Positions 1,140-4,185 of a stretch of 6,548 nucleotides of DNA are shown here, one piece after another. The stretch covers positions 1 through 6,548 of the forward strand of contig JALOPD010000207.1 in NCBI GenBank assembly GCA_025454075.1, given 5' to 3'. Position 1 is the first letter of the stretch. Every line of letters starts with the position of its first letter. The DNA comes from Desulfobacterales bacterium (GTDB lineage Bacteria > Desulfobacterota > Desulfobacteria > Desulfobacterales > UBA2174_A). The position numbers and the translations under genes were made by a program. The notes beneath the pieces were generated by a model. That model worked only from the letters and a program-made list of their open reading frames with translations. It ran no database searches and was not told the origin of the DNA.

Positions 1140-1146
1140 GGGAGGT
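1140..1146 (+). promoter_or_regulatory. Ribosome binding site that fixes the TPR gene start
   Basis: GGGAGGT lies 10 nt before ATG 1157. The in-frame GTG at 1145 overlaps this site and so cannot use it, which favours ATG 1157. Confidence 0.7.
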
Positions 1147-1156
1147 GGACTTCTCC

Positions 1157-1723
1157 ATGGGTGAACAGACGGCAATAGACGAAGCCGCCGGTGCGCTGCA
1201 GAAAGGGCATGAGCTCCTGCAGTCCGGGGCGCACGAGCAGGCCCTGGCGGAGTTCACCCGCGCCGGGGAGCTGTTCGCGACAGCCGGCGACCGGCAGAGG
1301 GAGGCCCGGGCCTGCACCAACAAAGCCTTGGTGCTGGTGCAGCTCGAGCGTTTCGAGGATGCCCTCGACGGATTCCGGACTGCACTCAAGCTCTTCGAAG
1401 CTGGCGACGAATTCATCCGCGTGGCCGAGCAGTACGGCAACATGGGCTCGGTACACCGGGACCTGGAGCAGCCGGACGAGGCGCTCGAAAACTACGCGGA
1501 GGCGCTCGCGATCTACGAGGAGCTCGGGCTGCGCGAGCGCGCGGCCGACCAGTGCACGAACATCGCCTACGCCCGGTTCATGAAGAAGGAGTACGGCGAG
1601 GCGCTGGGCTGGTACCGCAAGGCGCTCTCGCTCTACACCGAGACCGGCAGCGAGGAGAAAGCCAAGCTCACGGCCGAGAACGTTTCCCGGCTGGCGGCGG
1701 CGCTCGAGGAGCCGGACAAATGA
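1157..1723 (+). CDS. Tetratricopeptide repeat (TPR) protein
   Basis: This 188-residue protein is almost entirely TPR helices and has no signal peptide or membrane segment, so it is probably a cytoplasmic scaffold. At least four helix-turn-helix units can be read, centred on ALAEFTRAGELF, ALDGFRTALKLF, ALENYAEALAIYEELG and ALGWYRKALSLYTETG, each preceded by the matching A-helix (for example CTNKALVLVQLERFEDA and CTNIAYARFMKKEYGEA). The last repeat leads into a short capping helix. The stop overlaps the next start (ATGA), so translation is coupled to the DUF4037 gene, and a physical or functional partnership is likely. TPR proteins bind other proteins; no specific partner can be read from the sequence. 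Confidence 0.93.
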   Translation: MGEQTAIDEAAGALQKGHELLQSGAHEQALAEFTRAGELFATAGDRQREARACTNKALVLVQLERFEDALDGFRTALKLFEAGDEFIRVAEQYGNMGSVHRDLEQPDEALENYAEALAIYEELGLRERAADQCTNIAYARFMKKEYGEALGWYRKALSLYTETGSEEKAKLTAENVSRLAAALEEPDK

Positions 1724-2640
1724 AGGGGCTGGAGCTGGCCCAGGCCTACTTCCGCGCGGTCGGGCTTCCCATGATCCGCGAGCGCTTCGCGGACCTGGCC
1801 GAGCGGGTCGCGGCCGGCCTGGTCGGCCCGGGGTCGGAGTGCTTCGGCTTCGACGACGAGCTCTCGCACGACCACGACTGGGGCCCGGCCTTCTGCCTGT
1901 GGCTGGCCGACGACGACCACGCCCGCATCGGCGCCGAGCTGCAGGCCGCCTACGCGGCATTGCCGCCGATTTTCGAGGGCTGCGGCCCGCGCCGGGCGAG
2001 CCCGGGCGAGGAGTGGCGTGTGGGCGCCCAGCGCACCTCGGCCTTCTACCGGCGCTTCACCGGTCTCGACCGCCCTCCCGAGCGGCTGGAGGAGTGGCTG
2101 CGGATCCCGGAGGAGTCGCTCGCCACCTGCACCAATGGTCGGGTGTTCAGCGACCCGCTCGGCGAGTTCACCCGCCGGCGCGAGGCGCTGCTGGCCTACT
2201 ACCCCGAAGACGTCCGGCTGAAGAAGATCGCCTCGCTCTGCATCACCACCGCCCAGACCGGCCAGTACAACTACGCCCGCTCGCTCAGGCGCGGCGACCG
2301 GTTCGCGGCGGCCTATTCGGCCGTCACGTTCGCCGCCAACGCTATCCGCCTGGTCTTCCTGCTCAACCGCCGGTTCGCTCCGTTTTACAAGTGGCTGCAC
2401 CGGGCCGTGCGCGAGCTGCCGACGCTCGGCGCCGAGGTCCACGGGCAGATCGACCTCATGCTGGCCGAGGACGACCCCGGCCGCAGGGCCGAGGTTATGG
2501 AGTCGGTCTCGGTAGCGATTGCCGATATTCTGCGCCGGCAGGGGCTCTCGAACTCGGACAGCGATTTTCTGCTGGACCACGCCCCGCAGGTGCAGGCCCG
2601 GATCGAAAGCCCGCGGCTGCGGCAGCATCTGACAGCGTGA
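1720..2640 (+). CDS. DUF4037-family protein (nucleotidyltransferase-like fold)
   Basis: This 306-residue protein starts at ATG 1720, inside the stop of the TPR gene. The open frame reaches further upstream, but that part is a shadow of the TPR gene. Near residues 36-61 it has GPGSE, then FDDELSHDHDWGPAFCLWL. The GS and DxDxG-like pattern resembles the metal-binding motif of the nucleotidyltransferase superfamily and is the hallmark of DUF4037. The rest is mainly helical, with YNYARSLRRGD, NAIRLVFLLNRRFAPFYKW and HGQIDLMLAEDD, as in this family. The substrate is unknown; aminoglycoside-type or nucleotide transfer would be a guess. The coupling to a TPR protein and the nearby DUF4125 gene suggest a three-protein functional set. 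The family call is confident; the biochemical role is not. Confidence 0.88.
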   Translation: MKGLELAQAYFRAVGLPMIRERFADLAERVAAGLVGPGSECFGFDDELSHDHDWGPAFCLWLADDDHARIGAELQAAYAALPPIFEGCGPRRASPGEEWRVGAQRTSAFYRRFTGLDRPPERLEEWLRIPEESLATCTNGRVFSDPLGEFTRRREALLAYYPEDVRLKKIASLCITTAQTGQYNYARSLRRGDRFAAAYSAVTFAANAIRLVFLLNRRFAPFYKWLHRAVRELPTLGAEVHGQIDLMLAEDDPGRRAEVMESVSVAIADILRRQGLSNSDSDFLLDHAPQVQARIESPRLRQHLTA

Positions 2641-2645
2641 AGGAG

Positions 2646-2869
2646 GGGTTCAAGGGGCCGAGGGGTCAAGGGGTCGATGAAGCAGATGCAGGATCGGCGC
2701 TGGGGAAGCGACCTTCCAGTCGCGAGCCTTCCGGGCGGGTTGGCGTCTGTAGCTTTTCATCGTGCATCATGGACCCTGTATCCTGAATCCGGCTCCGGAA
2801 ACCGGCATCGAGCATCCAGTATCGAGGATCCAGCATCATCTCCTCTCGACCCCTTGACCCCTCGAACCC
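2646..2869. repeat. Intergenic inverted-repeat element with internal short repeats
   Basis: The 250-nt gap between the DUF4037 and DUF4125 genes is bounded by complementary arms. GAGGGGTCAAGGGGTCGA (2660-2677) is the exact reverse complement of TCGACCCCTTGACCCCTC (2846-2863). Outside these, GGGTTC (2646-2651) pairs with GAACCC (2864-2869) across an 8-nt insertion in the left arm. The arms are themselves iterations of CAAGGGGTC-like units. The interior, about 168 nt, has no credible coding frame and ends in a CATCCAG-type tandem repeat. I infer a non-autonomous mobile or palindromic repeat of the sort scattered between genes in deltaproteobacterial genomes; no transposase or target duplication is visible. 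It splits what would otherwise be a compact gene group, and its RNA could fold into one long hairpin. Confidence 0.7.
2807..2834. repeat. Tandem 14-mer repeat inside the intergenic element
   Basis: ATCGAGCATCCAGT (2807-2820) is followed directly by ATCGAGGATCCAGC (2821-2834), with two mismatches, then by ATCATC. Looser related units (TGTATCCTGAATCC) lie upstream near 2777-2790. Confidence 0.75.
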
Positions 2870-2890
2870 TTTTTCACCCCTGGTGACTTC

Positions 2891-3478
2891 ATGATCGAAA
2901 AAGACCGCATCATCGAGGCCATCCTCGAAATCGAGCTCCGGATGTTCCTCACCGTGAACCCGATGCAGACCAGCGGCTGCCAGGAATACCCCGAGAGCTT
3001 CAAGCTGCACCGCCGGGCACAGTTCCATCCCTGGTCCGGGGAGGCGCTCGGCAGCTACCTGGACGACCTGCACGCGGCCGAGGAGCTCGGGGAGAACCTC
3101 ATGCGCCGGAAGTACGCCCGCATGCAGGGGCTGCTCGGAAATGCTGCGGACAACCCCGTCGTCGAAGAGATCGTCCGGCTGAAAATGGACTGGCAGCGGG
3201 CGATGTTCCGGAACTACCCCGCGGTCATGAGCGGCGCGCGCCCGCTCACCGACGAGAGCACCCGGGCGCAGATGACCTCGTTCGAAACCTACGCCCGCGG
3301 CGAGCTCGAAACCTACTCCGAGCGCACCTTGGGGCTTCTCCACCGCGACCTCTTGGCCATGCTGGCGGCCGGCGAAAGCCTGTCGGAGAAGGTCTACGAC
3401 CACCTCGTTCGCGCGAGCGGCTACGCGTCGCTGGAAGAAGCGGAGAACAAGCTGACCGCCCGCATGCAGGAAGGTTAA
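2891..3478 (+). CDS. DUF4125-family protein
   Basis: This is a 195-residue soluble protein with no signal peptide. Recognisable DUF4125 features are the N-terminal IEAILEIELRMFLTVNPMQT, a Cys-Gln (CQEYPESFKLHRRAQF), then WSGEALGSYLDDLHAAEELG and NLMRRKYARMQG. The protein looks all-helical and ends in an amphipathic Glu/Lys-rich helix. The start at ATG 2891 has GGTGA (2882-2886) 4 nt upstream. The function of the family is unknown to me. Its neighbours here are the TPR-DUF4037 pair upstream, across the repeat element, and the MerB-like lyase only 26 nt downstream, so it is probably co-transcribed with the lyase. Confidence 0.85.
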   Translation: MIEKDRIIEAILEIELRMFLTVNPMQTSGCQEYPESFKLHRRAQFHPWSGEALGSYLDDLHAAEELGENLMRRKYARMQGLLGNAADNPVVEEIVRLKMDWQRAMFRNYPAVMSGARPLTDESTRAQMTSFETYARGELETYSERTLGLLHRDLLAMLAAGESLSEKVYDHLVRASGYASLEEAENKLTARMQEG

Positions 3479-3488
3479 ACCACTCACC

Positions 3489-3495
3489 GGTGGAG
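3489..3495 (+). promoter_or_regulatory. Ribosome binding site that fixes the MerB-like gene start
   Basis: GGTGGAG lies 9 nt before ATG 3505. An in-frame GTG at 3490 sits inside this site, so ATG 3505 is the better start and all residue numbers given here count from it. Confidence 0.6.
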
Positions 3496-3504
3496 ATACG
3501 GAAA

Positions 3505-4185
3505 ATGGAAATTGCCGATCCGGATGTCCGGCACTACGTTTACAGCACGTTTGCAAGAACCTCCCGCCCGCCGACCCCCCTCGAATGCGCCGAACACTTC
3601 GACATCCCGGTAGCCGACATTGAGGCTGCCTATGAGCGGCTGGCGAACGCCCACCACATCGCCCTCGCCCCGGGGTCGCATTCCATCTGGATGGCCCACC
3701 CGTTCTCGGCTCTGCCCACGAACTATGTGACCGAGATCGGGGCCCGGCGCTACTGGGGCAACTGAGCCTGGGACATCCTCGGCATCGCCGCCATTCTGGG
3801 CCGGGATGCCGTGGCGCACACCCCGTGCGGGTGTGGAGAGTGCCGCCAACGGCTCGCGCTGCCGATCCGCCCGGGCCGGCCGGTGGCGTCGGACTGGATC
3901 GTTCACTTCGTAGTCCCGGCCGCTCGGTTCTGGGACAACATCGGCTTTACCTGAGCGACGATTCTCGCCTTCAGGTCGAAGGATCACCTCGACAGGTGGC
4001 TGACGCGGCGAAAGGTGGCGGAAGGCTACCTCATGCCGATCCAGACGTGCTGGGAGTTGGCGCAGAAATGGTATGCCGGCCGCCTCGATCACGATTGGCA
4101 GCGGCCGGGACAGGACCAAGCTCACCAGCTGTTCGACAAACTCGGGCTGAAGGGCGCTTTCTGGGACCTCGGCGGGAAGCGCTGA
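3505..4185 (+). CDS. MerB-like organomercurial/organometal lyase, apparent double selenoprotein (TGA at codons 87 and 150 read as Sec)
   Basis: MerB enzymes cleave carbon-mercury bonds by protonolysis, using two cysteines and an aspartate. This 226-residue frame (MerB of R831b has about 212) matches the family end to end. It has an N-terminal helical/winged-helix part, then IWMAHPFSALPTNY (near residues 66-80), YWGN-U87-AWDILGIAAILGRDA, TPCGCGEC (106-113), FTU(150)ATILAFRSKDHLDRW, and the usual C-terminus (WELAQKWYAGRL ... LFDKLGLKGAFWDL). The frame is broken only by TGA at 3763 and 3952, exactly where family members carry the catalytic Cys. Against MerB numbering, U87 = Cys96, Asp90 = Asp99, Cys108 = Cys117 and U150 = Cys159; the 63-residue spacing is exact. 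There is no other stop or frameshift, and SECIS-like hairpins follow both TGAs. The genes at 1157 and 1720 use TGA as stop, which argues against a TGA-to-amino-acid genetic code. Homology is firm; Sec insertion is a strong inference; the organomercurial substrate is assumed from the family. Confidence 0.9.
3763..3765 (+). other. In-frame TGA, candidate selenocysteine codon Sec87 (replaces MerB Cys96)
   Basis: The reading YWGN-U-AWD matches the MerB catalytic C-x-x-D motif, with the Asp (3772-3774) in place. Standard gene calling would end the protein here, at 86 residues. Confidence 0.85.
3780..3811 (+). promoter_or_regulatory. Candidate bacterial SECIS hairpin for the first Sec codon
   Basis: CGGCATC (3780-3786) pairs perfectly with GATGCCG (3805-3811). 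Inside it, CCG/CGG (3788-3790 with 3802-3804) and CC/GG (3791-3792 with 3799-3800) continue the stem, with G3787 and C3801 bulged, up to a 6-nt loop ATTCTG (3793-3798). The loop starts 27 nt after the TGA, within the range usually accepted for bacterial SECIS. The stem is strong, but there is no G in the first two loop positions, so the match to the consensus is imperfect. Confidence 0.5.
3952..3954 (+). other. In-frame TGA, candidate selenocysteine codon Sec150 (replaces MerB Cys159)
   Basis: The reading GFT-U-ATILAFRS aligns with the second catalytic cysteine segment of the family (typically FTC followed by a hydrophobic strand and FRS). It lies exactly 63 codons after the first TGA. Confidence 0.85.
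3960..3985 (+). promoter_or_regulatory. Bacterial SECIS-like hairpin for the second Sec codon
   Basis: CCTTC (3968-3972) and GAAGG (3978-3982) form a perfect 5-bp stem with a 5-nt loop AGGTC (3973-3977), 18 nt after the TGA. A lower stem GAT/ATC (3960-3962 with 3983-3985) is set off by a 5-nt 5'-side bulge. The loop carries the GGUC element that SelB recognises in the E. coli fdhF SECIS, at nearly the same distance from the UGA. This is the best evidence in the DNA itself for recoding. Confidence 0.75.

Follow-up and report, generated by a model that had tools for sequence, protein, structure and literature searches.

The 6,548-nt stretch of Desulfobacterales DNA analyzed here (the window) carries a gene that probably encodes a MerB-family protein with two selenocysteines (Sec), each inserted with the aid of an RNA hairpin behind its TGA codon, that cleaves carbon-mercury or similar soft metal-carbon bonds through two selenolates. 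The gene occupies positions 3505-4182 of the forward strand as a frame of 226 codons, with in-frame TGA at codon 87 (3763-3765) and codon 150 (3952-3954) and a terminal TGA at 4183-4185. Re-reading the frame bore out the claim of an earlier sequence-only reading that nothing but these two TGA codons interrupts it; that reading's further expectation, that a standard pipeline would report an 86-residue fragment, came close, the longest listed open reading frame at the locus being 91 aa from a GTG start at 3490. The features of the locus are as follows.

2891..3478, forward strand: DUF4125 gene, upstream neighbor (PF13526, 190.2 bits)
3489..3495, forward strand: GGTGGAG, a putative Shine-Dalgarno-like sequence preceding the ATG at 3505 (by eye)
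3505..4185, forward strand: MerB-like gene, 226 codons plus stop, with two in-frame TGA codons
3763..3765, forward strand: TGA, predicted Sec87, equivalent of MerB Cys96 (frame, relatives and profile alignment)
3772..3774, forward strand: Asp90, equivalent of MerB Asp99 (frame, relatives and profile alignment)
3776..3815, forward strand: predicted SECIS-like hairpin after the first TGA, with the 11-pair clade A consensus stem (alignment folding)
3823..3843, forward strand: PCGCGEC motif including Cys110, equivalent of MerB Cys117 (alignment and profile)
3952..3954, forward strand: TGA, predicted Sec150, equivalent of MerB Cys159 (frame, relatives and profile alignment)
3968..3982, forward strand: predicted SECIS-like hairpin after the second TGA, loop AGGTC (alignment; same place in single-Sec genes)

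Translated through both TGA codons, the protein matches the Pfam MerB family PF03243 at 84.8 bits over residues 67-190, against a gathering cut-off of 27, in agreement with the family assignment first made from the sequence. Aligning a profile of the window protein and ten relatives to MerB chains from the PDB places codon 87 (site 1) on Cys96, Asp90 on Asp99, and codon 150 (site 2) on Cys159, as the sequence-only reading had proposed. The catalytic positions of PF03243 thus hold TGA at both cysteine equivalents, where Sec is predicted, and retain the aspartate. The same alignment corrects one earlier assignment: the equivalent of MerB Cys117 is not Cys108 (+21 from site 1) but Cys110 (+23). 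Together with Cys113, these two cysteines sit within a motif, PCGCG[EN]C, that is present in all eight clade A proteins of one alignment (clade A is delimited below). The predicted fold of the read-through protein has a mean pLDDT of 96.4, and the top structure match for the window protein is mercury-bound MerB2 (5c17).

The pair of TGA codons recurs, and the window protein is not alone in having the double-Sec form. A search of genome contigs returned ten relatives (L001-L010). Seven of these (L001-L007) share both TGA codons and the 63-codon distance between them, and come from Desulfobacterales, Desulfuromonas, Desulfobacteraceae, one Anaerolineae, and three 'Deltaproteobacteria' assemblies; the remaining three (L008-L010; Longimicrobiales, Acidobacteria, and Acidimicrobiia) have Cys followed by TGA. 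This distribution upholds the argument that two chance nonsense mutations at just these codons would be unlikely. A later genome scan added one more double-TGA gene, L094, giving a clade A of nine genes including that of the window (L001-L007, L094). Across 56 rows, in which L044 duplicates L008, the two codons read TGA/TGA in 30, Cys/TGA in 23, and Cys/Cys in three, with no other codons; the comparison of homologues that had been proposed as a check therefore returned TGA or a Cys codon in the relatives assessed. The gene shows the in-frame TGA opposite Cys of homologues that is expected of a bacterial selenoprotein. The loci fetched numbered 30 from the phylum of L001, 20 from that of L008, 15 from that of L004, and 12 from the later scan; L037-L041, L090, L099, L100, L102, and second copies lie outside the two-codon assessment. 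Two distant loci, read by eye, have Cys then TGA (L035) and Cys at both positions (L101).

Genome scans found matches in 46 of 249 genomes from the phylum of L008 (Gemmatimonadota) and 27 of 251 from that of L004 (Chloroflexota). The strong matches there are mainly single-TGA genes, with some that are stop-free, and the single-TGA loci we read have Cys at site 1 and TGA at site 2. Such single-Sec MerB-like genes (L045-L063, L077-L086) are common in these two phyla. A search of plasmid DNA gave no match.

A scan of 395 genomes from the phylum of L001 (Desulfobacterota) gave matches in 35: one is a clade A gene, 22 are intact members of a second group, clade B, a 23rd clade B gene (L042, genome G384) is frame-broken, and the rest are distant or partial. 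Clade B (L014-L034, L036, L096-L098) is a distant MerB-like family in which TGA occupies both Cys positions at a spacing of 65-68 codons and the residue at +3 from the first TGA is Glu, in contrast to the Asp of clade A. Its members carry the motifs [GA]QU[GA][FIL]E and U[SA][TKR]M..FRSE, and three of the intact genes (L096-L098) come from the phylum of L005. The four members scanned score 67-80 bits against PF03243, and no NCBIfam model reached its cut-off for the three scanned.

That the window holds a decaying merB with two nonsense mutations is scarcely credible. Two copies do look damaged, as decay in the family might produce: the database protein P0049 is missing the active-site stretch and has a frame change (relative to window positions 3514-3705 and 3977-4135), and L042 keeps both TGA codons with a frame change between them. 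Each is either a decayed copy or an assembly error, and of the frame-broken relatives that the sequence-only reading had named as counter-evidence they are the only two, among many intact genes. The same TGA pair is found in 33 other intact genes, the window frame has no other stops, and the hairpins and selenium machinery described below are conserved or present in relatives; the recurrence of both TGA codons contradicts decay.

Among 207 relatives listed from two protein-database searches, 179 end in [GAV][FY]T, the motif just ahead of the second TGA, which is what gene callers that take this codon for a stop would produce; P0005, a close database relative at 69% identity, carries Cys at site 1 and has its C-terminus at site 2. 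RNase HI domains (PF13456/PF00075) lie beside the MerB-like part in 32 of 120 database relatives listed (e.g. P0025, P0030, and P0040), and in P0025, the one read, the RNase H part is N-terminal to the MerB-like part and the chain stops short of site 2. Three translated database relatives have Trp at both sites, presumably because the gene caller's code reads TGA as Trp. Taken at face value, such proteins would fit a lineage-specific code that reads TGA as Trp or Gly, an explanation of negligible probability: two neighboring genes of the window, TPR (1721-1723) and DUF4037 (2638-2640), use TGA as an ordinary stop codon, and in genes read as DNA the aligned alternatives are Cys rather than Trp. 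On these grounds, and on the presence of SelB and tRNA-Sec in relatives, we rejected reassignment.

The genomes that carry related genes hold the machinery for Sec insertion. SelB scores over its family cut-off in nine of the ten hosts of L001-L010, the tenth (G004) having pieces only, and in 57 of another 59 genomes that hold the TGA, or 66/69 in total. For comparison, it passes in 2/7 genomes whose match is full-length and stop-free and in 8/14 without any match; the counts beyond the ten hosts were made by eye, and their sum of 67 equals the automatic tally. tRNA-Sec passes its cut-off in all ten hosts of L001-L010 (barely in G005); in 14 control genomes SelB passes in two and tRNA-Sec in five. 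In the L001 host, a second tRNA-Sec match adjoins a second SelB match (G001:C11:4805-6066). Together with the alternation of TGA and Cys and the conserved hairpins, these findings support a double-Sec protein, with read-through as Sec in the organism of the window remaining, like the fold, a prediction.

A SECIS-like hairpin is predicted from alignments just 3′ of each TGA. In a 17-codon window, the consensus fold lies below all 200 synonymous-codon shuffles at both sites, in clade A (8 genes) and in clade B (20 genes, without L034 and L036), a signal that is inflated because codon shuffles break kinship. With a 14-codon window, 5 of 200 shuffles reach the clade A fold at site 1, where the stem extends further; for L008-L010 alone, the fold at site 2 is not significant (31/200 shuffles as low). 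Ranked along the gene, the hairpin of clade A is first of 212 at site 1 and 28th of 212 at site 2, and that of clade B is first of 196 at site 2 and 13th at site 1. The 11-pair stem at clade A site 1 is 90.9% paired, compared with 44-52% when slid, and four of its pairs have changed on both sides; covariation there is moderate, with 11-45 of 500 shuffles reaching the observed values, and is weak in the stem at site 2. A GGTC loop is present at site 2 in 29 of 31 single-Sec genes, where shuffles give 7.5 on average and 16 at most, with no signal at site 1 (Cys) of the same 31 genes. We take this loop to be reminiscent of the SECIS loop of E. coli fdhF.

The signal resides in the alignment: the window alone shows no excess hairpin stability over codon shuffles (p 0.25 and 0.42), and single-sequence folding reaches p ≤ 0.05 in 4/8 clade A genes at site 1, 1/8 at site 2, and 13/22 clade B genes at site 2. 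Rfam returned no SECIS match in the window, only sub-threshold matches to plant miRNAs and sRNAs. A further conserved hairpin of clade A lies ∼18 codons after the first TGA, near the PCGCGEC codons and not directly behind the TGA.

A quick maximum-likelihood tree was built from 74 rows (SH-aLRT support only, no bootstrap, L077-L098 absent). It joins the eight rows of clade A to three database proteins that have Cys at site 1, in a group supported at 99 that lies among single-Sec forms; the 22 rows of clade B make up a separate group, also with support 99. Catalytic Cys letters were kept in the Cys rows and TGA was masked, which introduces a small bias. The tree has three changes at site 1 and five at site 2, the latter with three database proteins scored as TGA by inference. 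Should the tree be rooted among Cys forms, these counts would mean that double Sec was reached at least twice.

The genomic neighborhood gives few clues to function. Genes for TPR, DUF4037, and DUF4125 proteins lie in a row upstream on the same strand (1145-3478); the DUF4037 gene (1720-2640) overlaps the TPR stop as ATGA, and a gap of 26 nt separates the DUF4125 gene from the MerB-like gene, with which it is possibly co-transcribed. Before the DUF4125 gene, the intergenic segment 2652-2871 contains an imperfect 26-nt inverted repeat with arms 168 nt apart, and this segment also draws sub-threshold plant miRNA matches in Rfam. Four window neighbors, the TPR, DUF4037, and DUF4125 genes among them, have no tblastn match at L001-L010 or L064-L075. 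Neighbors differ between clade A loci and across 12 clade B regions, except that L067 and L068 have several families in common, and no conserved partner gene was found at the loci compared. Searches for merA, merR, and merT found none among the proteins scanned in the 6.5-kb window or among 20 scanned neighbors of relatives. We therefore consider the substrate putative, and a stand-alone organometal lyase with two selenolates is the best reading.

By analogy with MerB chemistry, the metal would be held by Sec87 and Sec150 where MerB uses Cys96 and Cys159, the leaving carbon would receive its proton from Asp90 as it does from Asp99 in MerB, and the freed metal would be handed to a thiol or selenol carrier. 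Selenolates are stronger and more nucleophilic ligands for mercury than thiolates, and would help most where substrate is at trace levels in sulfidic, anoxic settings. Mercury is the likely metal, judged from the active site shared with MerB and not from context.

An alternative is that the double-Sec protein acts on another soft organometal or metalloid (organotin, organolead, or methylated arsenic or selenium), in the manner of the selenocysteine-assisted organometal (SAO) system. The lack of mer genes beside the clade A genes examined would fit this, as would the extra PCGCGEC cysteines, the C-terminal extension past PF03243, and the finding that HgcA, the product of the mercury methylation gene hgcA, exceeds its cut-off in none of 10 clade A or single-Sec hosts. 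We nonetheless consider it rather unlikely, as both mercury-ligand positions and the equivalent of Asp99 are retained, the closest structure is a MerB2 with mercury bound, and a 227-aa Cys relative (L043) adjoins merA on plasmid pMR68. Paired Sec residues mostly serve as redox centers or ligands, and the stand-alone genes without a conserved partner could also encode a selenol or diselenide pair whose role is Hg(II) binding or storage, or redox chemistry, with no bond cleaved. This is very unlikely given the acidic residue kept at +3 in the genes compared (Asp in clade A, Glu in clade B), which is expected mainly if proton transfer matters.

Clade B co-occurs with HgcA. Within Desulfobacterota, HgcA exceeds its cut-off in 16/22 clade B genomes and 97/373 others (p 1.3e-5 with kinship ignored, and with G384, which holds the damaged clade B copy, counted among the 373); two more of the 22 have HgcA fragments below the cut-off. 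The host of L094 has no HgcA over the cut-off, and in the one-contig genome G292 hgcA and the clade B gene lie far apart. Among genomes of the G005 phylum, HgcA is found in 0/3 clade B carriers and 3/49 others, so the link may be a lineage effect, and we treat the co-occurrence as a lead, not a result.

How anaerobes without a mer operon break down methylmercury is a long-standing puzzle. It is possible, though we hold it only tentatively, that two-selenolate organometal cleavers arose at least twice from MerB, that together with the single-Sec form they make up a hidden, mer-independent demethylation system, and that clade B limits the methylmercury of methylators. Were this so, clade B would be how hgcA-positive mercury methylators undo or limit their own product, and clades A and B with the widespread single-Sec form would constitute methylmercury demethylation in anaerobes independent of mer. 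Selenolates bind mercury far more strongly than thiolates, so Sec at both metal-gripping positions would be a natural test of the benefit of selenium in metal-carbon cleavage, and the family offers a Cys/Cys, Cys/Sec, and Sec/Sec series for biochemistry. Because ordinary gene callers read double-TGA genes as fragments, merB surveys of sediments and metagenomes would undercount them.

Known MerB proteins (PF03243; R831b MerB 3f0o/3f2f/1s6l and MerB2 5c17) have Cys at the metal-binding positions, where the window protein has TGA at both; it also differs in its C-terminal stretch of ∼35 residues past PF03243 and in that no mer neighbors were found. It falls short of the classical MerB models (NF009710, 28.1 versus 193 bits; NF033555, 16.1 versus 200), and the scanned members of both clades score far below the cut-offs of NCBIfam (June 2026). 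In the limited literature searched, we recognized no description of a double-Sec MerB, and within that scope such proteins appear undescribed.

The nearest described counterpart is SaoL, likewise a MerB-like selenoprotein, to which the window protein has a weak match. A review from 2022 includes a selenoprotein described as alkylmercury lyase MerB-like, whose example accession is the same as that of SaoL (PMC9312934), and a 2026 review gives one MerB-like selenoprotein, SaoL, with a single Sec in a CU motif (PMC13188914), compared with the two predicted here. The sequence-only reading had left undecided whether the window protein belongs with SaoL or to a separate double-Sec lineage. The SaoL model NF040728 gives it 21.3 bits against a cut-off of 140 (other family members reach up to 47.7), on which score we rejected membership, and NCBIfam found no Sao families in six neighboring proteins of the 6.5-kb window; a separate lineage is favored. 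The Cys-type relatives (P0122, P0123, P0102, L011, L012, and L043) are also MerB-like, at 218-227 aa and 25-43% identity, and include the plasmid merB of Sphingomonas panacis (L011) and a gene on a Paraburkholderia plasmid (L012). They differ from the window protein in having Cys at both positions and, in L011 and L012, Cys rather than Asp at +3.
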